From NCBI GenBank assembly GCA_030424845.1, contig JAUHWC010000003.1, forward strand, positions 1-64,000: a stretch of DNA of 64,000 nucleotides, in the 5' to 3' direction. The position numbers and the translations under genes are program-made. The stretch is from Alphaproteobacteria bacterium (lineage in GTDB: Bacteria; Pseudomonadota; Alphaproteobacteria; Sphingomonadales; Sphingomonadaceae). Positions 40,744-63,754 of the stretch are shown here, piece after piece; position 1 is the stretch's first letter; each line of letters begins with the position of its first letter. A model generated the notes under the pieces. That model saw only the letters and a list, made by a program, of their open reading frames with translations, was not told the origin of the DNA and made no database searches.

Positions 40744-41317
40744 CGGCGCGCCGCTGGTCGCGGTCCTGGCTGCGGGCAGCGCCAGGCGCTTCGGTGGCGG
40801 CAAGCTGGATGCCATGCTGGCGGGCAAGCGCGTGGGCCAATGGGTGCTCGATGCGGTGGGAAGCGCCGGACTTGCTCCCGGCATCATCGTGGTCGGTCAG
40901 GACATGCCGCAATTCGCGTGTGACAGCGGTTGGCGCCTCGTCACCAATCCCAAGGCGCTGGACGGGCTGGGTACTTCAATCGCCGCTGCTGCAAGCCAGG
41001 CGCTGGCCCAAGGCAAGCCCTTGCTGGTGCTGCTGGCGGACATGCCTCTTGTCACGCCGGATCACATCGGTGGGCTGGTTCGTGCAGGCAAGAGCGCTGC
41101 GACCGCCTGGCCGCAAGGCAGGGCAGGGGTGCCGGCGCTGATCGGGATGTCCCTGCTGCCGCAGGCTGCCGCGCTGGCCGGCGATGCGGGTGCAGGTATT
41201 CTGCTTTCCGGCGATACCAGCGTGGCGCGTGTCGATGCCGATCCTGCGCTGCTGATCGACGTGGACGAGGCGGCGGACCTCGCGCGGGCCGAAGACTTGC
41301 TCAGCCAGCGCGGGTGA
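40721..41317 (+). CDS. MobA-like nucleotidyltransferase (MocA-type, molybdenum cofactor)
   Basis: The 198-residue protein has the nucleotide-binding motif LAAGSARRFGGGKL and the metal motif LLADMPLVTPDH. It should transfer CMP to molybdopterin for the xanthine-dehydrogenase family, in line with the upstream xdhC gene. The start ATG lies 23 nt inside the end of xdhC; an ATG five codons earlier is an alternative. Its 3' end overlaps the converging SnoaL gene by 17 nt. Confidence 0.85.
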   Translation: MPCCVPPDGAPLVAVLAAGSARRFGGGKLDAMLAGKRVGQWVLDAVGSAGLAPGIIVVGQDMPQFACDSGWRLVTNPKALDGLGTSIAAAASQALAQGKPLLVLLADMPLVTPDHIGGLVRAGKSAATAWPQGRAGVPALIGMSLLPQAAALAGDAGAGILLSGDTSVARVDADPALLIDVDEAADLARAEDLLSQRG

Positions 41318-42116
41318 ACACCGGCTCCCCGCCGCGCCTTGTGTGGATCTTGCAGATATACCCGTCGCGCAGGGTGTAGCTGGCGAGGATGGGGACATCG
41401 ACGCAGTCCCCCTTTGCAAGCGCGCCGACCACGAAATCGGGAGCGTCCTCGATCGCGGTGAAGCGGCTTGTGCAATCGACTTCGATTCGCTCGTCGCTCG
41501 CATCTATCGAATGCACGGTCAGCGTTTCGCGCACCGACCTGAACATGACGTTGTAGAAATCGGCAATGCCCTTTGCCGTCTCGATGGGCGGCAGGCTGGA
41601 TAGGTCGAGCACCACGTCATCGGTGTAGAAGCGGGTGTAGCGCGGCGCATCGCCATTGGAAAAAGCCGCGGCATAGGCGTGATAGGCAGCGATCTGGCTG
41701 GGATGCCCGCCCAGCGGCGGCAGCTTCGTCACCCCCTGCTCCGGCGGCCAGGCTGAAGTGACGAGATAGGTGATCTTTCCTTCACCATTAAGGTCATATC
41801 GTGCAAGGAATTTAACCGTTATGGTGTCTCCGGGATGCATTTCGCCGAAGGGGAATTCCGGGCGGTGCTTTGTCGCATGGAAATCCATGTCGATATCGGC
41901 GAAAACCTGGTCCTCGGTCTGCACGAAGCTCTGGATGCGCGGGCATTCACGCACGCCATCATGCGCCCAGTTGAGGAATTCCAGCATCCCGTCCTTGCCG
42001 CGCCTGACGCCCGAGCCGGAATGCATCTCGCATCCTTCGGCAAAGAACCGCTCCACCAGCGCCTCGTCATCGCCGGTGAGGAAGCAATCGATATAGGCAT
42101 GGTAGTCGAAGGTCAT
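41301..42116 (-). CDS. Two-domain SnoaL/NTF2-like protein
   Basis: The 271-residue cytoplasmic protein has two NTF2-like units, about 5-130 and 140-265, each beginning with a helix carrying Y-x-A-x-x-x-G-D (YIDCFLTGDDEALVERFF and YAAAFSNGDAPRYTRFY). Such domains catalyse isomerisation, hydrolysis or dehydration of small ketones and polyketides. It is the last gene of the long leftward operon from 49904 and overlaps its upstream neighbour (ATGA). The function is unknown. Confidence 0.75.
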   Translation of the reverse strand: MTFDYHAYIDCFLTGDDEALVERFFAEGCEMHSGSGVRRGKDGMLEFLNWAHDGVRECPRIQSFVQTEDQVFADIDMDFHATKHRPEFPFGEMHPGDTITVKFLARYDLNGEGKITYLVTSAWPPEQGVTKLPPLGGHPSQIAAYHAYAAAFSNGDAPRYTRFYTDDVVLDLSSLPPIETAKGIADFYNVMFRSVRETLTVHSIDASDERIEVDCTSRFTAIEDAPDFVVGALAKGDCVDVPILASYTLRDGYICKIHTRRGGEPVFTRAG

Positions 42117-43402
42117 ATTGCCGCCAGCGCCTGCTCCATATCCGCGATGATATCGTCGATATGCTCGATGCCCACGGATACGCGAACCACATCCGGCCCC
42201 GCGCCCGCAGCCACAAGTTCCGCCTCGCCAAGCTGGCTGTGGGTGGTGCTGGCCGGGTGGATGATCAGGCTGCGGGTGTCGCCGATATTCGCAAGGTGGC
42301 TGAACAGTTTCACGCCCGAGACCAGCTTCACGCCTGCCTCATATCCGCCTTTCACACCGAAGGTGAAGACCGCGCCGCCCTTGCCGCCGAGATATGTCTG
42401 GCACAGCGCGTTATAGGGATCGTCTGCAAGGCCCGCATAGGAGACCCACTCCACCTTGGGATGGGCCTTCAGCCATTCGGCCAGTTTATGCGCATTCTCG
42501 CAATGCCGCTCCATGCGCAGCGCCAGTGTCTCCATGCCGGTGAGCGTGTAGAAGGCGTTCTGCGGCGCCATGGCCGGGCCAAGATCGCGCAGGCCCAGCA
42601 CGCGGCAACCGATGATGAAGGCGATGGGGCCAACCGGCTCCAGCGCATCCACCAGCACCGCGCCGTGGTAGGATCCGTTGGGCCGGGTGAGGCTGGGGAA
42701 CTTGTCCCCCTGCGCGCGCCAGTCAAACTTGCCGCTGTCCACGATCAGGCCGCCAATGGAATTGCCGTGGCCGTTGAGGAACTTGGTGGTCGAATGCAGC
42801 ACGATATCCGCGCCGTGTTCGATCGGGCGGCACAGGGCGGGGCTGGCCATGGTGTTGTCCACCACCAGCGGTACGCCGGCATCATGGGCCACCTTGGCGA
42901 TGGCCGCGATGTCCTGAACCACGCCGCCGGGGTTGGCGAGGCTCTCGATAAACACCGCGCGGGTCTTGTCATCGCAGGCAGCGGCAACATTCGCGGGATC
43001 GTCTGCATCGACGAACTTCACGTCCCAGGCGAATTTGCGGAACGCTTCGCCCAGCTGGTTCAAGGACCCGCCATAAAGCTTCTTCGCCGCCACGATATTG
43101 CAGCCCGGCTCCATCAGTGTGTGGAAGGTGATCAGCTGCGCGGCATGGCCGGATGCCACGCCCAGCGCCGCCACGCCGCCTTCGAGCACGGTGATCTTCT
43201 TTTCCAGCGCATCCACCGTGGGGTTCATGATGCGGCTGTAGATGTTGCCGAATTCCTTGAGCGCGAAGAGGTTCGCCGCGTGTTCAGCATCGTTGAAGAC
43301 GTAGCTCGCCGTCTGGTAGATCGGCGTGATGCGCGCATTGGTGGCGGGGTCAGGCTGCTGCCCGCCGTGGATGGTGAGCGTTTCGAGCTTTTGCTGGGTC
43401 AT
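42113..43402 (-). CDS. O-acetylhomoserine aminocarboxypropyltransferase / Cys-Met metabolism PLP enzyme (MetY-like)
   Basis: The 429-residue PLP enzyme has the N-terminal pattern [27 protein letters not shown], the PLP region [16 protein letters not shown] and the lysine motif [12 protein letters not shown]. MetY uses sulfide and O-acetylhomoserine to make homocysteine. It has its own gap of 44 nt from the upstream gene, and overlaps the SnoaL gene. A link to the aromatic-ketone genes is not obvious, and it may simply be a housekeeping neighbour. Confidence 0.92.
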
Positions 43403-43446
43403 GTCGCGTCCTCTTCCCTGAAGCTGTTTGCAGCCTGTCTAGCCGC

Positions 43447-44232
43447 TCACCGGCGTGCGGCAAAGGCCTGCAAGGCATTGGCATAATGCGGCGATCCGCG
43501 CCGGTCGCCTTCGCCGCTGCCGATCTCGGCAACCGCGCCCGCAATCTTGCCGAGGTTGTCGGGCGTCAGGTCCTTCAGTGGCGATACATAGATGCCGATG
43601 GTGAACAGGATCGCACCGGTCTGCGCCAAGCGGCGCAGCGTCTGCCTCTCGGAACGGACGAACAGCGTTTCGCCCGCGCTTTCCGCCGTGACATGGGCGA
43701 AGGCCTGTTCGGGCGGGCCTTCTGCAATCCAGCGCGGGTTACCGGTGGGCGCGATGAACCAGTTGCAGCGGCCATAGATCGCGCCGGGTTTCAGCTTCAG
43801 CATGAAGCGGTCCACGGGAGCAGAGAGTTGCTCCTCGTAGCCGTCGATGGGAGCGTGCAGCGCAGTCATGGGCAGGCCCATCTTCTGCGCCGGATGCCAG
43901 TCCGTGGGGAAAGCCACCGCCGCCCCGATCAGGCGATAGATATCCTCGTCACCGCGCCTGGTGAGCAGGCACATGTCTTCCCATGCGGACTGTGCTGCTT
44001 CGGGTAGCGCGCCATCCACGCCCAGCATTTCGGCAAGTTCACGACCCGGCGCTTCGGCTTCGGGCGTGAGCTGCACGGCATCGGGATGCGCGGCGAAAGC
44101 CTTCCTGCGTGCCGCAAGGTCGGGATCGGGCTGGAGCCACTCGTGCTCTTCCAGCTTGGCGAGGCCGATCTTCAATGCCCCGCCGCCGCGCGCGCGAGGG
44201 AGCAATTCGTTGACGGAAAAGCCCAGGGTCAT
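43447..44232 (-). CDS. Heme-dependent oxidative N-demethylase-family protein (DUF3445)
   Basis: The 261-residue protein has the family pattern with YRLIGAAVAFPTDWHPAQKMG, IHAPIDGYE-like segment LHAPIDGYEEQL, and FVRSERQTLRRL. Characterised relatives bind heme and NAD(P)H or FMN-linked partners and demethylate amines such as dimethylamine; many members have not been tested. It lies 10 nt after the HAD phosphatase gene, so it is likely in the same transcript. Whether it demethylates an aromatic or an amine here is unknown. Confidence 0.82.
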   Translation of the reverse strand: MTLGFSVNELLPRARGGGALKIGLAKLEEHEWLQPDPDLAARRKAFAAHPDAVQLTPEAEAPGRELAEMLGVDGALPEAAQSAWEDMCLLTRRGDEDIYRLIGAAVAFPTDWHPAQKMGLPMTALHAPIDGYEEQLSAPVDRFMLKLKPGAIYGRCNWFIAPTGNPRWIAEGPPEQAFAHVTAESAGETLFVRSERQTLRRLAQTGAILFTIGIYVSPLKDLTPDNLGKIAGAVAEIGSGEGDRRGSPHYANALQAFAARR

Positions 44233-44242
44233 GCCGCAAGGC

Positions 44243-45070
44243 CTAACCCAATCCGCAAGCCTCCACCAGTTCGCCGATATTGGCGATCACCACGTCCGGT
44301 GTCTTTTCCGGCGGCTGCGCGGCCCATTCTTGGGCGCTGGTCGAGCCGGAAGTGACGGCAATCCCGATCGCTCCGTTGGCAACCGCCATCTGCATTTCGG
44401 CAACGGCATCATCGCCCACGACGCCCACGTCCTGCTTCGCGATGCCAAGCGTTTCGGCGATCACGTTCATCGCGTGGGTGGAGGGCTTGCCGGTGGGTTC
44501 GGGTTCCACGCCGGTCACGCGGTTGATTGCACCGTTGATGGCGCAGCTGTAGCCGAAGCTGCGGCCTTCCTTGGTGGCGAAGAATGGCACGTCGGAGGCA
44601 GAGAGGAAGGCTGCACCGTCCATCACCCGCTCACAGCCCAGATGGATATGGTCCATCACGCAATCGGGGTGCCAGGCGACATAGACGGCATCGGCGTGCT
44701 TCGCGTCATCATCGCCGAGCATGGAACACGAAACGCCCATTTCGGAGAGCGCTTCGGCCACGCTTTCAAGGCCGAGCACGAGGACGTTGGAGTAGCCGCG
44801 ATCAGCGATCACCTTGGCGGCCACGCTGTTTGGCGTGAACAGCTTTTCGTCCGGCACCGGCACGCCCGCATCGCGCAGGCGCGGGCCTTGCACGCGGGAA
44901 GCATAGGCGCTGCCATTGGTCAGTGCGATCCACGGGATGCCGAGCCGGTCCAACTCGCCCAGCGCTTCTGCCGCGCCGGGGATCGCGTCATAGCTGCCCA
45001 GCTTGCGGTTGGAGAGGATCAGCGTGCCATCAAGGTCGAACATGAAGCCTTTCGGCTTGCGAAGGCTCAT
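44243..45070 (-). CDS. HAD-superfamily (type IIA) phosphatase, AcvF-like
   Basis: The 275-residue protein has the HAD nucleophile motif FDLDGTLIL at about 11-19, motif II ALTNGSAY near 50, and a C-terminal motif VGVVGDDAVAEMQMA with the acidic pair. A type IIA cap lies between. Its ATG overlaps the carboxyltransferase stop (ATGA). In the acetovanillone pathway a HAD enzyme (AcvF) removes the phosphate from the phosphorylated ketone to drive carboxylation, and the same role is inferred here from position. NagD-like sugar phosphatases share this fold, so biochemical proof would be needed. Confidence 0.8.
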   Translation of the reverse strand: MSLRKPKGFMFDLDGTLILSNRKLGSYDAIPGAAEALGELDRLGIPWIALTNGSAYASRVQGPRLRDAGVPVPDEKLFTPNSVAAKVIADRGYSNVLVLGLESVAEALSEMGVSCSMLGDDDAKHADAVYVAWHPDCVMDHIHLGCERVMDGAAFLSASDVPFFATKEGRSFGYSCAINGAINRVTGVEPEPTGKPSTHAMNVIAETLGIAKQDVGVVGDDAVAEMQMAVANGAIGIAVTSGSTSAQEWAAQPPEKTPDVVIANIGELVEACGLG

Positions 45071-46527
45071 ACATTCACTTCCAGTTTGAAATCTTCCTTC
45101 TCCAGCCCGAAGCTGTCGACATCGCGGCGGGAGAGGACTTCGCGCAGCAGGTTCATCACTGCCACTGTATCGAGATCGTATTCGCGCGGTGCGGGGCCGG
45201 CGTCCTGCATGGCATTGACCAGTTTCGCGGGCATGGTGGCGCGCAGCAGGAATTCCTCGTCGGACAGGTTTTCGCCGATCTTCTTCCGCAGCGTCTTGAG
45301 GTCCGCCATGCCGGTTTCGGCCTGCAGTTCCTTGGTGCGCGGATTGGCCATGATGCGGTCCATCACGTTCGGGTCCACTGGCGCATTGGGGCGGCCGAAC
45401 TTGCCGATGGCGAAGCGGATGATCTCGTCCGGGATGATCTCCCAGCGGCCCTTGCCGGTCACGTTCATCATCGCCTGTGTCTGGAGCATCTGGGCAAAGG
45501 GCGTCATCACGATCGGCCAGCCCAGTTCCTGCCGCACGCGGCCCATCTCCTCGATCACCGCGCCTTCCAGCTCGGGCACGCCCTGGTCCTTCAGGTGGCG
45601 GCGCATGGTGCCGACCATGCCGCCAGGCAAATTGTGCTGGTAATAGGCCGCATCGAAAGCCATCGGCCGGCCGGTGGGCAGGTCCTCGGCCTCGGCCACG
45701 GCTGTCCAGAAATCGGCGACTTCCTGCGCCGCCTCGTCATCGATATCGACGGTATGGCCCTGCGCGCGAAGGTTGGCGATCATGCGCATGATCGGCGGGT
45801 TGCTGGTGCCGTCTGCAGCGCCGCCGCTGGCGCATTGCACGGCGGCGATGCCAAGGTCCGCGGCCTCGAGGCAGGCAGGTTCTGCCTGGCCGATGGTGCA
45901 GTGGTTGTGCAGTTCCAGCGGCTTGTCGCCGATCTCGGCAAGAATCGCGGGGATCAGCGTCTGCGCGCGCTTTGGGGTCAGCAGCCCGCCCGGGTCCTTG
46001 ATGTAGAGCGCATCGATGTCGGGACATGCCGCCATGGTGCGGGCAGCTTCGGCATAATGCGCATCGTCATGGATCGGGCTGATCGAATAGACCAATGCGC
46101 CCACCACCTGTTCGCCGCCATTGCGCTTTACCAGCCTGGCGACTTCGGTGTTGGCCTTGGCATCGTTCATCGGATCGGCCAGCGCGAAGCGGCGGATGCC
46201 GTTGGTCGCCAGCGTACGGAAGGCCAGTTCCATGAATTCAGGCGTGGCGGTTTCCCAGGCGATGAAGCGGAACCCGGTGGAAAGGAATTGCAGCGGGGTG
46301 TTCTTGCAGATTTCCGCCATGCCGCGGATGCGTTCCCACGGGTCTTCCTGCTTGTAGCGCACCGCCACGCCCATGTGGGTGGAGGTGGTGAAATCGATCG
46401 CGCGGTATCCGGCGCGCTCCATCGCCGGGGCAATGGTCAGCGTCTTGGCGGTATCCACGCCCAGCGCCCCCCACAGGCACTGGTTGCCATCGCGCAGGCT
46501 CGTTTCGACGATATCGACCTTGGCCAT
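45067..46527 (-). CDS. Biotin-dependent carboxyltransferase subunit (pyruvate-carboxylase B / oxaloacetate-decarboxylase alpha type)
   Basis: The 486-residue protein has the HMGL-like TIM barrel with TSLRDGNQ at about 9-16, the metal-lysine motif YIKDPGGLL at about 177 and the metal ligands in LELHNHCTIG at about 206. The conserved carboxylase (PYC_OADA) domain follows to about 465. It should transfer carboxyl from biotin to a ketone-type carbon. There is no fused biotinyl domain; the carrier is the adjacent gene (TGATG overlap). Its place between a two-part phosphotransferase and a HAD phosphatase matches the acetovanillone/hydroxyphenylethanone carboxylase rather than pyruvate carboxylase. 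Confidence 0.85.
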   Translation of the reverse strand: MAKVDIVETSLRDGNQCLWGALGVDTAKTLTIAPAMERAGYRAIDFTTSTHMGVAVRYKQEDPWERIRGMAEICKNTPLQFLSTGFRFIAWETATPEFMELAFRTLATNGIRRFALADPMNDAKANTEVARLVKRNGGEQVVGALVYSISPIHDDAHYAEAARTMAACPDIDALYIKDPGGLLTPKRAQTLIPAILAEIGDKPLELHNHCTIGQAEPACLEAADLGIAAVQCASGGAADGTSNPPIMRMIANLRAQGHTVDIDDEAAQEVADFWTAVAEAEDLPTGRPMAFDAAYYQHNLPGGMVGTMRRHLKDQGVPELEGAVIEEMGRVRQELGWPIVMTPFAQMLQTQAMMNVTGKGRWEIIPDEIIRFAIGKFGRPNAPVDPNVMDRIMANPRTKELQAETGMADLKTLRKKIGENLSDEEFLLRATMPAKLVNAMQDAGPAPREYDLDTVAVMNLLREVLSRRDVDSFGLEKEDFKLEVNV

Positions 46528-47012
46528 CAGCCGCCCACCTTCACGCGGATCAGCGCCTGGCCTTCCTCGACCGCGGAACCGTTCTGGGCGAGGATGGCCG
46601 TGACCGTGCCGGCCACGCCAGCGCGGATCGGGTTCATCAGCTTCATCACCTCGATAATGCCGATGGTGGTGTCTTCGGTAACGGTGTCACCCACCTGCAC
46701 GAAGGGGTCTTCTCCGGGACGGGGTGCCGCGTAGAAATTGCCCAGCAGCGGCGCAGGTACGTCCTGCTCGCCTGCACCTGCCGCAGCCGCGGGCGCGGGG
46801 GCCGGAGCAGCAGCGGGAGCAGGCCTGGCCGCTGGCGCTGGAGCTTCGCCCGCGTCATCATCGCCGGCATCGTCAAGATAGCGGCCACCGCCTCCGCCAT
46901 CGCGGCGGATGCGCAGTTTGAAATCGCCCATCTGCAGGTTGAGAGAAGTGAACTGGCTCTCGTCCAGCAGCTTGGCAATCTCGGCAATGTCCTTGCCAGT
47001 GAGGCGGCTCAC
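46527..47012 (-). CDS. Biotin carboxyl carrier protein
   Basis: The 161-residue protein has an AccB-like N-terminal helix region (about 5-45), an Ala/Pro-rich linker (about 57-85) and a biotinyl domain with biotinylation motif EVMKLM, K124 being the target. The start is GTG at 47012, overlapping the stop of the upstream gene as GTGA; a longer frame further upstream is inside that gene. It should shuttle carboxybiotin to the adjacent carboxyltransferase. The matching biotin carboxylase is not encoded in this window. Confidence 0.9.
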   Translation of the reverse strand: MSRLTGKDIAEIAKLLDESQFTSLNLQMGDFKLRIRRDGGGGGRYLDDAGDDDAGEAPAPAARPAPAAAPAPAPAAAAGAGEQDVPAPLLGNFYAAPRPGEDPFVQVGDTVTEDTTIGIIEVMKLMNPIRAGVAGTVTAILAQNGSAVEEGQALIRVKVGG

Positions 47013-48052
47013 TTCCTGCCTCCGAAGATGTTCATCACATGCGCCATCGGGTTGTCGACCGGCTTGGAAACGGGCTTGGCTTCGGCATCCTTGGCGGCCC
47101 ACACGGTTTCCGGGCGGGACTGGAGCAGCAGGATGTTGCCCTGCTTGTCCAGGGCCCATTCGATGTCCTGCGGCTTGCCGTAGTGCTTCTCGATCCTGCG
47201 GCCGACCTGGCGCAGGCCCTCCAGCTCCTCGTCGGTCAGGCAAGGTGCGGAGCGGATGTCGTCCTCGTTCTCCACCTCCACGATGCCGCCTCCTTCAGCA
47301 GGGATCTGGCGAGCGTGCTTGTCCGAAATGTCGCGCTGCGAGATTTCGCCGGTGATCTTGCCCATCACCCACTTGTCGGGCGTGACCTCCCCCGAAACCA
47401 CGGCGCTGCCGAGCCCCCAGGCCCCTTCGATGGCGATCACGGACTTGTCCCCTGTCAACGGCGAGCGGGTGAACATCACCCCGGCGCATTTCGCATCGAC
47501 CATCTGCTGCACGACGACCGCCATCGCAACCTGGCCTTCAGGGAAGCCCTGCTTGCGGCGGTAGGTCATGCTTTCGAGAGAATAGAGGCTGCCCCAGCAT
47601 TCGCGCACGCGATGCGCCATGTCCTCGGGCGTCAGCACCCACAGGAAGGTGTCCTGCAAGCCGGCAAAGCTGGCATCCTCGGCATCTTCGGTGGTGGCGG
47701 AGGAACGCACCGCGACAGGTTCGCCATCGGGGCAGAGCTCGCGCATGGCGGCCATGATCGCCTGTTCGACCTCTGCCGGCATCGGCTCTTCCATCACCCG
47801 CTCACGCAGTTGCTCGGAAAGCCTGGTTGCCGCGCCGTGATCGGAGGGATCAAGGGCTTCGACCATTGGCCGGATCGGTTCGCGGGCCTCGAGTGCCTCG
47901 AGGAAGGTCTCGAACGCGGCAACGGTAACCACGAAGCCGGGCGGCACGGCGATGCCGGCTTGCGTCAACTCGCCGAGCGAGCCGCCCTTGCCGCCCACGG
48001 TGGGGCGATCCTTGATCCCGACATCGGCAAACCAGGCAACTGCATCGGACAT
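47009..48052 (-). CDS. PEP-synthase-like ATP-grasp subunit of an aryl-ketone phosphotransferase (AcvA/B- or phenylphosphate-synthase type)
   Basis: The 347-residue protein matches the N-terminal pyruvate-phosphate-dikinase domain: GGKGGSLGELTQAGIAVPPGFVVT at the start (broken as residues 21-44), AVRSSATTEDAEDASFAGLQDT, and the mid region around QQMVDAKCAGVMFTRSP. It binds ATP and transfers phosphate to the histidine of the partner subunit. Start ATG at 48052 lies 4 nt after the partner stop; an upstream frame into that gene is rejected. Together they resemble phenylphosphate synthase and the acetovanillone kinase AcvAB/HpeHI. No UbiD-type carboxylase follows, so phenol carboxylation is unlikely. 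Confidence 0.85.
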   Translation of the reverse strand: MSDAVAWFADVGIKDRPTVGGKGGSLGELTQAGIAVPPGFVVTVAAFETFLEALEAREPIRPMVEALDPSDHGAATRLSEQLRERVMEEPMPAEVEQAIMAAMRELCPDGEPVAVRSSATTEDAEDASFAGLQDTFLWVLTPEDMAHRVRECWGSLYSLESMTYRRKQGFPEGQVAMAVVVQQMVDAKCAGVMFTRSPLTGDKSVIAIEGAWGLGSAVVSGEVTPDKWVMGKITGEISQRDISDKHARQIPAEGGGIVEVENEDDIRSAPCLTDEELEGLRQVGRRIEKHYGKPQDIEWALDKQGNILLLQSRPETVWAAKDAEAKPVSKPVDNPMAHVMNIFGGRK

Positions 48053-48056
48053 GATC

Positions 48057-49904
48057 TCAAGCGTCCTCCAGCACGGGTTCGTCATCCAGAATCGTCACCG
48101 TGCCCTTGCCACCGTCCACGCGGATGCGCTGGCCGTCCTTGATGCGGGTGGTGGCCTTGCCGGTGCCGACCACGGCAGGCAGGCCGTATTCGCGGGCGAC
48201 AATGGCCATGTGGCTCATCGAACCACCGATATCGGATACCGCCGCACCGATCTTCTGGAAGATGGGCGACCAGGTGGGGTTGGTGACCTGGCAGACGAGG
48301 ATATCGCCTTGCTGGATGCGGCCGATCTCGCTGACCGACTTGACCACGCGGGCGGTGCCTTCGACCACGCCCGAACAAGCGGCAAAGCCCTTCAGTTCCT
48401 TGAGGTTTTCCGTCCCGTCATCGAGCCAGCTGTCGAGGTTCTCGCGGGTAATGCCCCACAGCATGTTGATGGCCGGATCATCGATCGCATCAGGCACATT
48501 GCCAAGCGCGGGCGGGGTGGAGTGCTTGCCCCATTCCTCGATCGTGGCCTTGCGCTGGGCGATGATGGCGGGCCAGTGCTTCACACCGCGCGGGGTGGTG
48601 CCCACGCCCCAGCTCAGCATCAGGTCCACGATGGCGCTTTCCAGTTCGTACTGGGTGAGGTGGAAGACGTCCTCCTCAACACCGTCGGGGCCGAAGAAGC
48701 CGTGTGCCAGCAGCAGCCGGCCGAACTCGCGGATCTTGTTGAAGAACAGGTTGGTGTACCAGTGCTCGCAATAGAACTTGTGCCCCTCGACATAGGGGAA
48801 CACGCGGTGCGCGAGGTTGATCAGCTGGTCGTAGGTCGCCTTGTCTTCCTCGGTGTCCAGCAGGTCGCGATAATCGGCCACCAGCTGCTCGCGTTCCTCG
48901 ATCAGCTGTTCGGTGGGGCGTTCCACGTTCTCGCCAGCCTTGATCTTCTCGATATAGCCGGGAAGTGCGGCGAACGGCAGTGACAGGTCATCGTTCCAGG
49001 AGCGGTGATAGTGGTAGAACCCGTCCCCGCTGGAAACGTTGAACCACGGGTTGCGGCTGGTTTCCAGTTCGCCGAGCCATTTCTTGCCATGCTCGCCCAG
49101 CTTGTCGAGATCGGCCAGCACGTCGTCGATGTTCATGTCATCGGTGAAGTGATGGTCCACGCCCAGTTCCACCGCACGGCGGGCAAGGCGCTTCACCTCT
49201 TCATCGGGACGGAAGATCTCGGCTTCCATCCCTGCAACCATGCGGCTGATCGCCTGGTCGGAAATCTCCGGGAAGGCGTTCTTGCAGAATTCGAAGAACG
49301 TCATGTAGGCGCCATAGCCGAGCAGCAGGAACTCGAAGTGGTGGTGCCACATGCGGTGGTAGCCTTCGACCTGCTGCTGGTAGATCTTCAGCAGATCGTG
49401 GCTGGCCGGAACGGCATCGCCTTCGGTGATGGTTTCCAGCGGCTCGTAGGCAGGAAGCGAAGGGCTGGGCAGCGCTTGTGCATCCGCGATCAGCGTCTTC
49501 ATCTTGTCCTTCCACTGGTCGTAGAGACGCTCCCAGTGTTCATAGTAATAGAAGGCGCGCTGCTGGAATTCCGCGGTGCGTTCGGCGATTTCGTCAGGAT
49601 CGGTCACCACCACGCCGCCGATGTAGACGCGGCCGTTGATGATGCGGTGATCGACACCCTTTGCCGTGGGCAGGACGTGCACGCGGGTATTGAATGCACC
49701 CATCGCGACATAGGCCGCTTCGGCCGTGATCATGTCGAAATGATGCATCGGCTCGGGGAAGTGCATGGAGTTGTAGAACCAGAACTTCTCGTCATCCTCC
49801 GGTTCGAACTGGGTGTAGTAGGGGTAGGCGGCCTGCGCCTCTTCGGTTCCCGGAACCACCTTGATGGAACTGGGCAGCGGAAAGCCTTTTTTGGTATCGC
49901 TCAT
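48057..49904 (-). CDS. PEP-utilising phosphohistidine subunit of an aryl-ketone phosphotransferase (AcvA/B type)
   Basis: The 615-residue protein has a C-terminal swivelling phosphohistidine domain: DIGGSMSHMAIVAREYGLPAVVG with H565 as the phosphate carrier, and the closing strand GQRIRVDGGKGTVTIL. The large N-terminal part (about 20-500) is rich in Tyr, Trp, His and acidic residues and presumably binds the phenolic ketone. With the ATP-grasp partner it should convert a hydroxyaryl ketone into its aryl phosphate. Start ATG at 49904 gives MSDTKKGF; a 34-residue upstream extension crosses the leader hairpin and is rejected. First gene of the operon. Confidence 0.84.
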   Translation of the reverse strand: MSDTKKGFPLPSSIKVVPGTEEAQAAYPYYTQFEPEDDEKFWFYNSMHFPEPMHHFDMITAEAAYVAMGAFNTRVHVLPTAKGVDHRIINGRVYIGGVVVTDPDEIAERTAEFQQRAFYYYEHWERLYDQWKDKMKTLIADAQALPSPSLPAYEPLETITEGDAVPASHDLLKIYQQQVEGYHRMWHHHFEFLLLGYGAYMTFFEFCKNAFPEISDQAISRMVAGMEAEIFRPDEEVKRLARRAVELGVDHHFTDDMNIDDVLADLDKLGEHGKKWLGELETSRNPWFNVSSGDGFYHYHRSWNDDLSLPFAALPGYIEKIKAGENVERPTEQLIEEREQLVADYRDLLDTEEDKATYDQLINLAHRVFPYVEGHKFYCEHWYTNLFFNKIREFGRLLLAHGFFGPDGVEEDVFHLTQYELESAIVDLMLSWGVGTTPRGVKHWPAIIAQRKATIEEWGKHSTPPALGNVPDAIDDPAINMLWGITRENLDSWLDDGTENLKELKGFAACSGVVEGTARVVKSVSEIGRIQQGDILVCQVTNPTWSPIFQKIGAAVSDIGGSMSHMAIVAREYGLPAVVGTGKATTRIKDGQRIRVDGGKGTVTILDDEPVLEDA

Positions 49905-50627: not shown

Positions 50628-51614
50628 TCAGCTCTGCGGTGCGTTGCCGGCGCGCCATTCCCGCGGTGTGATGCCGAAGCGCTTGCGGAACAGGCGGGTG
50701 AAGTAGCCCGGGTCGAGAAAGCCGATGCGATAGGCGATGTCTGCGATCGACAGGCCCGACGCGCGTTCATCGGCCAGCATGTCGCTTGCCCGCTCAAGCC
50801 GGGTGGCGTTCAGTTCCTGGACAAAGCTGGTGCCGCTGGCGGCCAGCAGCGTCTGCAGGTATCGCTTGGAAATGCCGACCTGCTTCGCCACCGTTTCGGG
50901 CGACAGGTCGGGATCGGCATAATCGCTTTCGATCCGGCGCAGGATGCGTGCGGCCAGCTGGTTGCGATGGCGGCCCTGCCGGCCCGCCGTCTCGCTGGTT
51001 TCCTCCATGCCCGTAGCCAGTGCCAGAAGGCTGCCGAACTGTTCGGCGATCAACGGGCGGGGAAGCGGGGCAACGTCCAGCCCACCGTCAAGGATCGTCT
51101 CCAGCAGCGCGCCCAGCGGCGCCCCCCAGCCATTGCTTGCGGAGATCGGCCGACCCAGCAGCGCGCCCGGATCGGGCATGTAGCGATCCAGCCACCCCTG
51201 CGGCATCATCAGGTCGATGCATTCGTGGGGCGTTGCCATTTCCATCTGGTAGAAGCGGGTATTGTCCAGCAGCACGAATTGCCCCGGCGCGACATTGAAT
51301 GTTCGCCCGGCCATGGTCGTCTTGAGCGTGCCGACGCGGGCATAGACCAGCTGGATGGAGGGGGCCGCCCGCATCGCCACGCCATCGAGGCCGATATGGG
51401 TCACCCGCTGTGCCGGCGCATGGATATGCAACAGTCGCAGCTGGCCGATGCCGTGGCTGACCCAGCGTGCGGCAAAGGCATTGGGATCGAACACCTCCAC
51501 CTCGATCGGGGCGATGGTGCTGGCCGCCCAGTCGCGCCAGGCGGTGATCGCCTCGTTCTGGCCCAGGCCGAGCGAGCTCCAGCTTTCGTCCTGTATCGTT
51601 GCCGTCTTCGCCAT
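50628..51614 (-). CDS. AraC-family transcriptional regulator
   Basis: The 328-residue regulator has an N-terminal cupin-like AraC-binding domain (about 45-190) and a C-terminal double helix-turn-helix (about 225-325: LSPETVAKQVGISKRYLQTLL and SGLSIADIAYRIGFLDPGYFTRLFRKRFGITP in parts). It likely senses an aromatic or its metabolite and activates nearby genes. Start ATG at 51614; a 12-residue upstream extension is possible. It lies between two operons and divergent from the 51.7-58.8 kb cluster, so it may control both. Confidence 0.88.
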   Translation of the reverse strand: MAKTATIQDESWSSLGLGQNEAITAWRDWAASTIAPIEVEVFDPNAFAARWVSHGIGQLRLLHIHAPAQRVTHIGLDGVAMRAAPSIQLVYARVGTLKTTMAGRTFNVAPGQFVLLDNTRFYQMEMATPHECIDLMMPQGWLDRYMPDPGALLGRPISASNGWGAPLGALLETILDGGLDVAPLPRPLIAEQFGSLLALATGMEETSETAGRQGRHRNQLAARILRRIESDYADPDLSPETVAKQVGISKRYLQTLLAASGTSFVQELNATRLERASDMLADERASGLSIADIAYRIGFLDPGYFTRLFRKRFGITPREWRAGNAPQS

Positions 51615-51654
51615 GCCAAGCTTGCTAGAATGACCTGCGCCAGGCTTCAAGGTT

Positions 51655-51738: not shown

Positions 51739-52728
51739 ATGAAACGTTTTCTGGCGCTGGTGGGCGCCGTGTCGCTTGTCGCCTGTGCCGGCGAACAGCA
51801 AGCCCAGCCCTTGCCTGCCCCGGGGCCGATTGCGGTCTATGGCAACAAGCAGACCTTCGAGATCGCGCCGGTGCTGCTGGCGGCCGAGCATTACTATCCG
51901 GGCCAAGCCACGGTGCGCATGGGCTCCATCGCCAACCTTGTCGGAGCACCGCCGGTTCCCGGTTTCGGCGAAGAGGGCGAGGCCGATGTCGCCACCAATG
52001 CCGAAACGCAGGCGCTGCGCTATTCGGTCGAGAACCCGAACCTGCGCATCGTGATGACCGTGACAGAAGGGCTCTACCGGGTGGTCGCGCGGCGCTCCGC
52101 CGGGATCGCAAGCATGGCGGACATGAAGGGCAAGCGCGTTGCCACCATCCCGCAGACCAGCTCGGGCTATTTCTTCAAGCTGATGCTGGAGCGCGAGGGG
52201 CTGTCCTATGACGATATCGAGGCGGTGCCGATCGTGCCGCTTTCCGGGATGACCGAGGCGCTCGCCAATCGCGAGGTGGATGCGGTGGTGATCTGGGAAC
52301 CGGAAAGCGGGAACGCCGCACAGGTGCTGGGCGACGACCTCATCGAGTTCGGCGGCGAGGGCGTCTATCGCGAGTTGTTCAACCTCAACACCACGACCGA
52401 GAAGCTGGCAGACCCGCAAGCGCGCAACCGGATCGTGCAATTCATCCGCGCCATCCTCGATGCCAGCGAGGAAATCCGGAAAGACCCGGGCCGGGCGCAG
52501 GACCTTGTCTGCGTGTCCGGCGAGTTCGATCCGCAGGACGTGGTCGATAGCTGGGAACACCACCGCTGGCTCGCCGCCGTGCCGGACGACCTGCTGGACG
52601 TGCTGGAAGTGCAGGAACAGTGGCTGGCGGAGCGTGACGGGCGCGTGCCGCGCAGCCGGGATGAACTGGCGACATTGATCGATACCAGCGTATATGAAGA
52701 GGCCGTGGCCCTTGGAGAACGCGATTGA
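51739..52728 (+). CDS. ABC-type substrate-binding lipoprotein (SsuA/NMT1-like), orphan
   Basis: The 329-residue protein has a lipoprotein signal (SLVAC) and the periplasmic type-II binding fold seen in SsuA/TauA/ThiY-like proteins: MADMKGKRVATIPQTSSGYF and EALANREVDAVVIWEP. It should capture a small, probably organic acid or sulfonated/aromatic ligand. No permease or ATPase gene is beside it, so it may use a remote ABC transporter or act as a sensor. ATG start with GGGGGAGAG; it overlaps the next gene (TTGA). Confidence 0.85.
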   Translation: MKRFLALVGAVSLVACAGEQQAQPLPAPGPIAVYGNKQTFEIAPVLLAAEHYYPGQATVRMGSIANLVGAPPVPGFGEEGEADVATNAETQALRYSVENPNLRIVMTVTEGLYRVVARRSAGIASMADMKGKRVATIPQTSSGYFFKLMLEREGLSYDDIEAVPIVPLSGMTEALANREVDAVVIWEPESGNAAQVLGDDLIEFGGEGVYRELFNLNTTTEKLADPQARNRIVQFIRAILDASEEIRKDPGRAQDLVCVSGEFDPQDVVDSWEHHRWLAAVPDDLLDVLEVQEQWLAERDGRVPRSRDELATLIDTSVYEEAVALGERD

Positions 52729-54620
52729 TTCACCGCCTGTTGCTCGCCCTGTCGGCCTTGCTGCTGGCACCTGCCGCCGCATCGGCGCAGGCTGACCTGC
52801 AAACCTATGCTGCACAGGTGGAGGACCTTACCTCCATTCGCGAAATCAAGCACTTGCAGGCGCATTGGGGCCATCTTGCACTTCGCGGGCAATGGCAGGA
52901 CATGGCCGAGCTTCTGACCGAGGACGTGGTGGTTGAATATCGCGACGGCGAATTCCGCGGGCTGGCAGAGGTGCTGGATGATCTCGTCCAGTCCTTCGGT
53001 TTCGGCAATGCGGACGGCCTCGATGCCGACAGGCTGAACATCGGGCTGTGGATTTCCCCCGTCATCACGCTGGACACCGACGGGCAGGGCGCGACCGGGC
53101 GCTGGCACGAGCTGTTGCTGAGCGCGCAGGCAGGACAATCGGCAGACTGGTCCGGCGGGACCTGGGTCGTCCGATACGAAATGCGCGGCGGGGACTGGAA
53201 AATCGCCCGCATGCGCTATTACCACCAGTTCCACGGACCCTATTCGCCGGGCTGGAGCCACGATCCCGCCGATCTCGAGCGGGCGCCCTATCACTACACG
53301 CCGGACGATGTCGGCAGGCTGCTGCCGCAGCGCGAAATCGTCACCCTGTCGACCCGCGATGATCTCGACCGGCAGGCCAGCCTCCTGCTCGAACACGGGC
53401 GCGTGCAGAACATCGCCAATGCCTTCGGCTATTACCTGGATCGGCGCATGTATGACGATGTGGTGGACCTGTTCTATCGCGATGCGCGCGTGGTGGTGCA
53501 GGGGCAGGGCAGTTGGGAAGGGCAGGACGGCGTGCGCCGCTTCCTTGCCCGTTTCGGGCCAGCCGGCCTCGATTTTGGCGAGTTGAACGACCGGCCGCAG
53601 CTGATGCCCAAGGTCATCATCAGCCGCGACGGAACGGTGGCGAGTGTCTCCGCCGTCGAACTGGGGATGAGCGGGCAGCATGGCGGCCAGGGCTTCTGGT
53701 CCGCCACGCTCAACCATTTCGTGCTGATGCGCGGTGATGATGGCAAATGGCGCATCGCCAGCCTGCTGCGCATCCCCTTCATGCGCGCCGACCATGCCGA
53801 TGGCTGGGCGAGCCCGGTCAGCCCGCTGCTCGACTATCCGGAAGGTTCCGGGCCTGACCGGGCCTTGCCGCGCGGGGCGATGGCCTACCCGCAGGCGAGC
53901 ATTACCCAGCCGATCTCGGAGCTCGGCATCTTCGCTCCGCCGGTGGTGACGGGAGCAGAGGCGAGCATCACGCCGGGCGCACTGGCCATGGCCGAGGCTT
54001 TCGACGCGGCAGAGAATGTTTCCAACGCCTATGGCTATTACATCGACCAGTTCGCCTGGGCCGACACAGCTGCTTTGTTTGCGCGCGACGGATGGAAGGA
54101 GCTGTCCTACATCGGCACCTTCATCGGCCGCGAGCGCGTTCTGGGAAGCCTGGTCCAGCGCTATGGCGAAGGCGGGCCGCGCGATGAGTTCCAGGCCATC
54201 CACCAGAAAACGCAACCGGTGGTGAGCGTCGGGGATGATGGCCAGCGGGCCTTCGTGCGCACGCGGCTGTTGCAGATGAATTCGGGCGTCGATCCGGCCA
54301 GCGCATCGTGGATCGGCGGGATCTACGAAAACCAGGTGGTCAAGGAAGACGGCATCTGGCGCATCCACGGGATGGACCTCGATTATGTCTGGTTGGCGGA
54401 CAACGCCAGCGGCTGGATGGCGGCTGATCCCGAAAGCAGCGCCCGCTTCGGTGTCAGCGACGAGGTGGTCGCGCAGTTTGCCCCCGATGCACCCTTGCGC
54501 GGGGAGACATTCGCGCCTTATCCTCGCATCGCGCCGATGGGGTTCCACTTCGCCAATCCGGTAAGCGGCAGGGAACCGGCAACACGGCTGCACTGGTCTG
54601 ACGGTCATCGCCAGCCGTGA
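52725..54620 (+). CDS. Secreted protein with three NTF2/SnoaL-like repeats
   Basis: The 631-residue protein has a signal peptide (cleavage near ASA-QA) and three related units: about 36-170 (IREIKHLQAHWGHLALRGQW), 220-365 (VQNIANAFGYYLDRRMYDDV) and 425-560 (AENVSNAYGYYIDQFAWADT). Each starts with helix Y/H-x-x-x-x-x-x-W/Y-x-D as in SnoaL_4 proteins. Such domains bind or isomerise small organic molecules. It starts at TTG overlapping the previous stop, with GGAG upstream. It probably works in the periplasm with the binding lipoprotein. No known function. Confidence 0.72.
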   Translation: MIHRLLLALSALLLAPAAASAQADLQTYAAQVEDLTSIREIKHLQAHWGHLALRGQWQDMAELLTEDVVVEYRDGEFRGLAEVLDDLVQSFGFGNADGLDADRLNIGLWISPVITLDTDGQGATGRWHELLLSAQAGQSADWSGGTWVVRYEMRGGDWKIARMRYYHQFHGPYSPGWSHDPADLERAPYHYTPDDVGRLLPQREIVTLSTRDDLDRQASLLLEHGRVQNIANAFGYYLDRRMYDDVVDLFYRDARVVVQGQGSWEGQDGVRRFLARFGPAGLDFGELNDRPQLMPKVIISRDGTVASVSAVELGMSGQHGGQGFWSATLNHFVLMRGDDGKWRIASLLRIPFMRADHADGWASPVSPLLDYPEGSGPDRALPRGAMAYPQASITQPISELGIFAPPVVTGAEASITPGALAMAEAFDAAENVSNAYGYYIDQFAWADTAALFARDGWKELSYIGTFIGRERVLGSLVQRYGEGGPRDEFQAIHQKTQPVVSVGDDGQRAFVRTRLLQMNSGVDPASASWIGGIYENQVVKEDGIWRIHGMDLDYVWLADNASGWMAADPESSARFGVSDEVVAQFAPDAPLRGETFAPYPRIAPMGFHFANPVSGREPATRLHWSDGHRQP

Positions 54621-55449: not shown

Positions 55450-56487
55450 ATGGGAAGCAAATGCCGCCTGATCGCCTGTGAGGAAGCCTGGTCGATCCCC
55501 GAAGTTGCCGAGGAATTGCGCAAGGTAGCGCGCGGCCCCTCGCAAAGTTCGGACAAGCTTCTGGTGGGCGGCATCTACGATGCGGACCATGACACCACCG
55601 GCTATGGCAAGATGAACTTCCTCGAAGGGCTGAAGGACATCGAGCAGCAACGCCTGCCGCAGATGGACGAGTACGGCGTTGACATGCACCTGCTGACGCT
55701 GACCGCGCCCGGCGTGCAGATGTTCGATGCCGACACGGCAACGGAACTGGCCGCGCTTTCCAATGACCGGATGGCGGAGATCTGCCGCAAGTATCCCAAG
55801 CGCTTTGCCGGGCTGGCCAGCTTCGCCCCGCACAGCCCCAAGCGCGCGGCCAAGGAAATCGACCGCGTGATGAACGATCTCAAGCTGAACGGGCTTGTGG
55901 TCAACGGGCACACCAACGGCGAGTATTTCGACGATCCCAAGTTCTGGCCGATCTTCGAGGCGGCGGAAGCGCTGGATGCCACCATCTACATCCATCCGCG
56001 CGGCCCGTCGGACACGCTCAAAGGTCCGCTGATGGACTATGCGATGGACAGCGCGATGTGGGCTTACGGGGTCGAAGTGGGCACGAACATGCTGCGCATG
56101 ATGGCCGGCGGCGTGTTCGACCATTTCCCGAAGCTGCGCATCTGCGTGGGCCACATGGGCGAAATGGTGCCCTTTTTCATCTGGCGCATCAACTTCATGA
56201 ACAGCCGTGCGCAAAAGGTGGGCCGTGCACCCAAGACCCAGCGCAGCATGGAGGAATACTTCAAGGACAATTTCGTCTTTACCACCAGCGGCGTGGAAGA
56301 CCCGCTGGCGCTGCGCTATGCTATTGACCGCATGGGCATCGACAATGTCATCTGGGCGATCGACTACCCCTACCAGCCGATGAAGCCGGCGGTGGACTTC
56401 ATCAACAATTTCGAATGCACCGATGAAGAACGGCACGCCCTGTGCCACGGCAACGCCGAACGGGTGTTCAAGATCGCCCCGGAGTGA
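55450..56487 (+). CDS. Amidohydrolase-family nonoxidative decarboxylase (LigW / gamma-resorcylate decarboxylase-like)
   Basis: The 345-residue protein is of the ACMSD-type amidohydrolase family. The ligand set of LigW is present: CEEAW at the N-terminus (E11/E12), H182 in IYIHPRG, H235 in VGHMGE and D305 in AIDYPYQ. Relatives remove a ring carboxyl group, for example from 5-carboxyvanillate or 2,6-dihydroxybenzoate. The N-terminal insert (about 15-55) and lack of the exact LigW surroundings leave the substrate open; a related hydrolase or lactone-opening role is possible. It precedes a CoA-transferase gene by 13 nt. Confidence 0.85.
   Translation: MGSKCRLIACEEAWSIPEVAEELRKVARGPSQSSDKLLVGGIYDADHDTTGYGKMNFLEGLKDIEQQRLPQMDEYGVDMHLLTLTAPGVQMFDADTATELAALSNDRMAEICRKYPKRFAGLASFAPHSPKRAAKEIDRVMNDLKLNGLVVNGHTNGEYFDDPKFWPIFEAAEALDATIYIHPRGPSDTLKGPLMDYAMDSAMWAYGVEVGTNMLRMMAGGVFDHFPKLRICVGHMGEMVPFFIWRINFMNSRAQKVGRAPKTQRSMEEYFKDNFVFTTSGVEDPLALRYAIDRMGIDNVIWAIDYPYQPMKPAVDFINNFECTDEERHALCHGNAERVFKIAPE

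Positions 56488-62488: not shown

Positions 62489-63754
<1,266 letters not shown>

Follow-up and report, generated by a model that had tools for sequence, protein, structure and literature searches.

We analysed a 64,000-nucleotide stretch of DNA (the window; positions 1 to 64,000 of contig JAUHWC010000003.1, assembly GCA_030424845.1) from an alphaproteobacterium of the Erythrobacter group, focusing on an operon that resembles the acv and hpe operons of hydroxyaryl methyl ketone catabolism and has no gene for a biotin carboxylase (BC). Eight genes run on the minus strand from 49904 down to 41301, with no overlap or gap exceeding 44 bases. The first two encode the subunits of a dikinase, namely the swivel/substrate subunit K1 (48057..49904; AcvA/HpeH-like), with a PF00391 match at residues 530-601, and the ATP-grasp subunit K2 (47009..48085; AcvB/HpeI-like; PF01326, E 1e-103), which starts at 48085 or 48052 and has 9goj as its top match in the PDB. 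The catalytic residue H565 of K1 lies in SDIGGSMSH, which has the form T/SxxGGxxxH described, together with the mechanism, for dikinases (PMC12167813). There follow a biotin carboxyl carrier protein (BCCP) of 161 amino acids (46527..47012; PF00364), which begins with GTG at 47012 and carries its biotinyl lysine, K124, in EVMKLMN; an HpeB-like carboxyltransferase (CT; 45067..46527) with PF00682 and PF02436 (HMGL-like plus PYC_OADA); and a HAD-IIA phosphatase (44243..45070; AcvF/HpeD-like; PF13344/PF13242). The last three genes encode a DUF3445/HODM alpha-subunit-like protein (43447..44232; PF11927), a pyridoxal phosphate enzyme of the O-acetylhomoserine sulfhydrylase (MetY) family (42113..43402; PF01053; NF004650 at 728.9 bits vs a cut-off of 667) and a SnoaL-like protein (41301..42116; PF12680) bordering a MobA-XdhC neighbourhood. 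Overlaps amount to 29 bases for K1/K2 (none if K2 starts at 48052), 4 for K2/carrier, 1 for carrier/CT, 4 for CT/HAD and 4 for MetY/SnoaL, and gaps of 10 and 44 bases separate HAD from HODM and HODM from MetY. A first-pass annotation made from the letters of the window had given the same eight genes and coordinates, the same residues H565 and K124 and the overlapping arrangement of the core genes, all of which our analysis reproduces.

K1, K2, carrier, CT and HAD phosphatase are 78, 70, 57, 72 and 61% identical, respectively, to proteins of Sphingobium sp. SYK-6 encoded in the same order, a five-gene match that is far beyond chance. Orthology and synteny with the SYK-6 acv genes bear out the earlier assignment of the operon to the acetovanillone (Acv/Hpe) type. 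In a CT phylogeny, the CT proteins of the window and of SYK-6 share a branch with 100/100 support that comprises 46 rows. Grouping with pyruvate carboxylases, which the first-pass annotation had named as evidence that would speak against this assignment, was not seen, and long frames of the pyruvate carboxylase type (985-1232 amino acids) match the window CT at 24-28% identity only. The CT scores below the cut-offs of the families NF006761 (276.7 vs 402) and TIGR01108 (236 vs 756.5), and the carrier, scored on a truncated version of 140 amino acids, falls below that of the AccB family TIGR00531 (105.8 vs 115.2 bits).

In Rhodococcus rhodochrous GD02, HpeHI phosphorylates acetovanillone and 4-hydroxyacetophenone, HpeCBA carboxylates the phosphorylated ketones only, and HpeD is the dephosphorylating enzyme (PMC9618137). 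The same source describes acvABCDEF of SYK-6 as homologous and syntenous to hpe and reports, second-hand, that it acts on acetovanillone/acetosyringone; three six-gene pathways are compared in PMC13101465. Apart from BC, the window operon has the gene order of acv and the same kinase and CT motifs, and it shares with hpeHICBADEF the logic of kinase, carboxylase and phosphatase, for which activities were shown in GD02 (PMC9618137, PMC12167813). SYK-6 and its relatives encode a BC of about 440 amino acids between carrier and CT, whereas in the window the two genes meet directly at this site (46527..46527, minus strand). Similarly, GD02 has HpeA (the BC, listed after CT) together with HpeE and HpeF, whereas the run in the window contains neither a BC nor such a pair. 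In the sections consulted of PMC9618137, PMC12167813 and PMC13101465, BC appears as one of the carboxylase subunits, and a BC-less operon is not described.

The source genome (2.83 Mb, 99.86% complete, 0.05% contamination) was searched with PF02785 and PF02786, and neither it nor the operon contains a dedicated BC of the HpeA type. PF02785 has one match genome-wide, AccC, at C7:453158 adjoining AccB. PF02786 has four matches: one in AccC, two in a frame of 1109 amino acids and one, partial, in a CoA-ligase frame. By its length and match pattern, the 1109-amino-acid frame resembles carbamoyl-phosphate synthase, and PF02786 adds no BC candidate beyond AccC. The first-pass annotation had noticed the absence of a BC gene from the operon and proposed a search of the genome for a free-standing BC paralogue; the absence is real, and the search yields only AccC. 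What had been regarded as an oddity of the window is instead a recurrent absence that affects several lineages, as detailed below.

We consider it probable that the operon belongs to the acv/hpe type, serves the breakdown of hydroxyaryl methyl ketones derived from lignin, has lost its dedicated BC and relies on AccC to charge its carrier. In such a pathway, K1 and K2 would use ATP to phosphorylate the phenolic ketone via H565, the housekeeping AccC would carboxylate the biotin on K124 of the operon carrier, CT would pass the carboxyl group on to the phosphorylated ketone at its methyl carbon, and the HAD phosphatase would free the aroylacetate. The first, third and fourth of these steps are assigned from homologous enzymes of Rhodococcus GD02 for which assays are reported (PMC9618137). 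We infer the use of AccC because it is the sole BC found in the genome and because the operon carriers are shifted towards AccB where BC is missing, with one exception. These two observations favour the borrowing of AccC that the first-pass annotation had raised as a possibility.

To place the absence of BC in context, we compared 81 loci, consisting of the window and the best 80 of 236 loci from a scan of named-species genomes. Four of these (L133, L135, L177 and L181) cannot be scored for BC where contigs end; of the 77 scorable operons, 41 are BC-less and 36 have a BC. The BC-less operons are from 31 Erythrobacteraceae and near relatives (including the window), Novosphingobium sp. B 225, 8 Acidobacteria and 1 gammaproteobacterial metagenome-assembled genome (MAG). 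Among the 80 other loci, the CT proteins nearest to that of the window are from MAGs of the Altererythrobacter/Erythrobacter group and from Alteraurantiacibacter aquimixticola. On a CT tree of 85 rows, the distribution of BC requires 6 changes, at least 5 of them forced by well-supported branches, and a single clade of all BC-less rows is rejected (approximately unbiased test, p-AU 1.9e-67). Repeated loss is the natural reading because BC-bearing rows are found both deeper than the BC-less rows and among them. This suggests that BC was lost more than once, with the proviso that a count of changes alone cannot separate gain from loss. In one BC-bearing locus, that of Croceibacterium xixiisoli (L137, G415:C2:79043-80503), the match to the operon BC is split in two by a short interruption that keeps the reading frame.

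Given that a subunit which is constant elsewhere has been lost, one might suspect an operon that no longer functions or is in decay. We regard this as highly improbable. The frames in the window are open and overlapping, the motif EVMKLM is present in 75/75 operon carriers, and the catalytic residues of CT are kept, with K177, H207 and H209 in 81/81 rows and D13 in 80/80 rows that have a letter at this position. Moreover, operons without BC have been retained across a large clade. Among 13 chosen pairs, the CT ratio of nonsynonymous to synonymous substitution rates (dN/dS) is 0.02-0.09 in 10 BC-less pairs vs 0.05-0.12 in 3 BC-bearing pairs. The low values in the BC-less pairs indicate that CT is under purifying selection and that the enzyme is maintained.

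The operon could also be served by a BC encoded elsewhere in the genome, for example one of the acv type that has been relocated, one belonging to a different carboxylase cluster, or the BC domain within the alpha subunit of an acyl-CoA carboxylase. We searched for a BC of the acv type (at least 65% identity to that of SYK-6) in the genomes of 42 of the 77 scorable loci; it is present in 15/15 genomes with a BC-bearing operon and in 0/27 with a BC-less one, and we therefore rejected relocation of the acv BC. In 8/8 BC-less genomes (G000, G019, G025, G100, G257, G158, G030 and G341, which partly overlap the set of 81 loci), exactly one BC frame is of free-standing size (450-582 amino acids from stop to stop), and all others have at least 646 amino acids. 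By comparison, five genomes with a BC-bearing acv operon (G123, G365, G171, G273 and G375) contain AccC plus the operon BC. Like the source genome, three BC-less MAGs (G429, G433 and G434) and A. buctensis (G432) have a single BC match at E <= 1e-30. Relatives do offer candidates for another BC. In L107, L110, L111, L128 and L134, frames containing a BC follow the operon at a distance of 5 kb; G422 and G428 have extra BCs of 56-60% identity that belong to other full clusters (in G428 carrier, BC, CT and phosphatase are together); and there are a BC of 54% identity in G403 and a second BC-carrier pair in Acidobacteria, to which we return below. However, the source genome has none of these and only AccC, so that a further BC would have to be hidden within its small missing part, and L134 has its own operon BC in addition to the downstream frame. 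Overall, we consider service by another BC unlikely. In the five loci with downstream BC frames, methylmalonyl-CoA-mutase-like genes, in some cases with biotin synthase, were read by eye downstream of the phosphatase, and the operon seems to occupy a propionate-pathway site there.

The carriers themselves differ according to the presence of BC. When 75 operon carriers are aligned with 25 AccB proteins, residue 147 (window numbering) is L or M in 34/34 carriers from BC-bearing operons and A, P, S or T in 40/41 from BC-less operons. At position 34, R, K or H is found in 39/40 BC-less carriers, compared with 1/32 BC-bearing carriers. AccB proteins of Sphingomonadales have R or K at position 34 and P at position 147 in 25/25 cases. 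Of 15 stretches examined for AccB, 6 gave a carrier and 5 of these covered residue 34; in these five AccB-like carriers, four acidobacterial and one gammaproteobacterial, position 34 is K or R and position 147 is P. The window carrier, of which the top PDB match is the E. coli carrier 4hr7_B, has the AccB-like residues R34 and A147, whereas the SYK-6 carrier has E and L at these positions. It resembles AccB of the AccB-AccC acetyl-CoA carboxylase in its N-terminal part and biotinyl domain, whereas the window CT is of the pyruvate carboxylase/OadA type, unlike AccA/AccD. Judged from the alignment, residues 34 and 147 are shifted towards AccB in the BC-less carriers, with the exception of L172.

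We scanned 1,838 alignable columns of the carrier, CT, both kinase subunits and the phosphatase for those that fully distinguish BC-less rows from BC-bearing ones, skipping letter-poor columns (31 vs 12 rows in Erythrobacteraceae/Sphingobium, 8 vs 7 in Acidobacteria). Seventeen of the 1,838 columns separate the two groups in Erythrobacteraceae/Sphingobium, 16 of them in the carrier, and 17 columns do so in Acidobacteria, 4 of them in the carrier. Only 34 and 147 separate in both lineages, compared to an expected 0.16 columns (P 0.01 across the five proteins). When L149 was included in a looser three-way scan of 1,823 columns, 4 columns of the carrier and 1 of CT emerged. In the carrier tree, the BC-less carriers of Erythrobacteraceae stand apart from their BC-bearing cousins, contrary to the CT tree, and the carrier was thus either remodelled fast or replaced; each fits a change of partner. 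In the Chloroflexus enzyme the N-terminal beta-hairpin of BCCP contacts BC, and the cores of BCCP hold the tetramer together in the E. coli complex (PMC11077971). By analogy, residues 34 and 147 are plausible contact sites for BC because they are located in the N-terminal part and in the core, respectively.

Alternatively, CT might do without a BC by working as a decarboxylase or transcarboxylase that loads biotin with CO2 from some other carboxylated compound, in the manner of 5S or oxaloacetate decarboxylase. The homology of CT to the transcarboxylase 5S subunit and to the oxaloacetate decarboxylase alpha subunit is in keeping with this proposal. However, it calls for a second, donor CT, and a search of the source genome with the window CT gave one match (CTs of the AccA/AccD type are undetectable in this way). 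It also leaves the shift of the carrier towards AccB unexplained, and we consider it very unlikely.

Several observations weigh against the use of AccC or against a general role of the two carrier residues. For the carrier alone, the 2 common columns compare with 0.4 expected (P 0.05). Among phylogenetically independent pairs, 4 are for, 0 against and 1 tied at residue 147 (p 0.125), and about 3 are for, 0 against and 1 tied at residue 34; there are too few pairs for these tests to reach 0.05. The carrier of L149 is placed among the BC-less carriers of Erythrobacteraceae in the poorly resolved carrier tree and may have been transferred from them, and in view of this loose grouping we set L149 aside as an independent change. 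The gammaproteobacterial MAG locus L172 is BC-less and yet keeps L147, with an altered N-terminal part of the carrier. Its genome, G403, encodes the BC of 54% identity mentioned above together with a carrier, a CT of 36% identity and ATP-grasp-like kinase frames, and the L172/L212 operon possibly has a different BC partner. No short BC was detected in G431, the genome of the BC-less locus L107, which at 2.2 Mb is probably incomplete. BC-less genomes of Acidobacteria contain a second short BC, 73-84% identical among L204, L205, L206 and L210, which in L204, L205 and L210 is followed by a protein of 164 amino acids with a biotin motif. This second BC, 48-51% identical to that of SYK-6 and with a biotin-motif protein of its own in these three loci, was rejected as a relocated acv BC, and a similar BC-carrier pair occurs in the BC-bearing genome G406; the second BC is a possible partner of the carrier of the BC-less operon. 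The pair renders AccC less certain in Acidobacteria, where AccC is the likelier but not the sole possible partner. Finally, no enzyme of the BKACE family was found in the source genome. Cleavage of the aroylacetate as by VceA, which we take to be a BKACE enzyme, was set aside since its family is absent from this genome.

Extending the use of AccC in the window operon to the whole family, one can propose that a catabolic carboxylase repeatedly dropped its BC and became a client of AccC, that residues 34 and 147 form a code which sets the choice of BC and was reset alike in Alphaproteobacteria and Acidobacteria, and that lignin-ketone catabolism and membrane lipid synthesis compete for this enzyme. 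We judge the chances of this broader proposal to be even; they had stood slightly above even and were lowered because of the second BC-carrier pair in Acidobacteria.

We infer the identity of the substrate by comparison with known pathway proteins. The same chemistry, including AccC, could act on a phenolic ketone or related phenol other than acetovanillone or 4-hydroxyacetophenone, and the lack of a BKACE enzyme as well as the linkage of the operon to a LigW-like decarboxylase and other uncharacterised genes would be compatible with this. Given the high identity to the Acv proteins of SYK-6 (78% for K1, 72% for CT), such a substrate appears rather unlikely, though it deserves consideration. 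Serine precedes the catalytic histidine of K1 in 67/68 rows. The phenol and cresol kinases PpsA and CreH also have serine at this position, and HpeH has cysteine (PMC12167813); this residue is not diagnostic of substrate. The best matches of K1 on plasmids were below 60% identity and included no protein named HpeH, CreH or PpsA.

According to its gene content, the operon is set in a lignin-aromatic neighbourhood. Upstream is an AraC-type candidate regulator of the operon (50628..51650, minus strand; PF12833/PF14525), which is present in 27/28 BC-less loci of the Erythrobacteraceae clade with at least 8.4 kb upstream of CT. A LigW-like amidohydrolase of the 5-carboxyvanillate decarboxylase type (55450..56487, plus strand; top PDB match 4icm, E 4e-108) is found in at least 16/28 BC-less loci of this clade, some of which end before its position. 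This linked amidohydrolase was considered as a possible HpeF-like hydrolase and provisionally set aside: HpeF-type enzymes are presumably amidohydrolases, but the protein resembles LigW and is 19% identical (E 0.05) to the amidohydrolase that follows the related operon of plasmid L183. The window also encodes the beta subunit of a class III extradiol dioxygenase of the LigB family (62489..63331, minus strand; PF02900; NF009903 at 463 bits vs a cut-off of 317). Just past the window (C2:69542-72627) there are a p-hydroxycinnamoyl-CoA hydratase/lyase, whose score exceeds the cut-off of its family, and a CoA ligase with two domains, a pair which we take to be of the FerB/FerA type. A protein of 631 amino acids with three SnoaL_4 stretches is encoded at 52725-54620 next to an NMT1-like binding protein.

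The three genes downstream of the phosphatase had struck the first-pass annotation as unrelated, and indeed they are outside the conserved unit. Among 26 BC-less loci of the Erythrobacteraceae clade with at least 5 kb downstream, HODM is present in 8, MetY in 10 and SnoaL in 17, and all three together in only 4; none of them occurs in 23 BC-bearing loci. We rejected them as parts of the pathway and classify them as variable cargo. The sole relevant PDB match of the HODM-like protein is a haem N-demethylase, by analogy with which it could function as an O-demethylase.

Other arrangements were seen at further loci. In the BC-less acidobacterial operons of L159, L160, L161, L165, L170, L171 and L174, about 0.7 kb separates the kinase genes, with a possible frame of 215 amino acids in L159. 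Clusters with a CT of 45-51% identity in L048-L064 and on the plasmids L182 and L183 mostly comprise carrier, BC, CT and HAD phosphatase, and in the five of these loci that we examined there was no K1 or K2 match at E <= 1. On plasmids of Sphingomonas bisphenolicum AO1 and of Pseudomonas putida YC-AE1, a bisphenol A degrader (PMC6958771), a Tm-1-like ATP-binding protein takes the position of the kinase and, judging by this placement, may be an unrelated hydroxyacetophenone kinase. The Rhizobium plasmid NZ_CP125638 carries a CT of 50% identity near a K1 of 54% identity.

The pathway for hydroxyaryl ketones is already known. In the open-access papers searched, we found no account of BC-less acv operons, of repeated BC loss or of AccC serving such operons; PMC9618137 states that hpe homologues are variously combined in the gene clusters of diverse bacteria, presented in a supplementary figure that may include operons of this kind. 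The nearest precedent found is the promiscuous BC proposed for an archaeal ancestor and for Archaeoglobus (PMC3199775), where one BC is likewise inferred to serve unrelated carboxyltransferases. The sharing proposed for archaea is ancestral, whereas in the bacterial lineages described here it would be secondary and would follow the loss of a dedicated BC, the carrier remaining separate.

If our interpretation is correct, heteromeric biotin-dependent carboxylases have a modularity that allows the essential AccC to be shared with a catabolic enzyme, and two carrier residues that may set the pairing of BC and carrier become amenable to experiment. Smaller acv modules of five genes could then serve lignin-ketone engineering, with AccC supplied by the host. 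Genomes where no BC other than AccC was found constitute ready-made natural tests of this sharing. For genome annotation, the operon is a warning that the absence of a BC gene does not equal a broken carboxylase operon.

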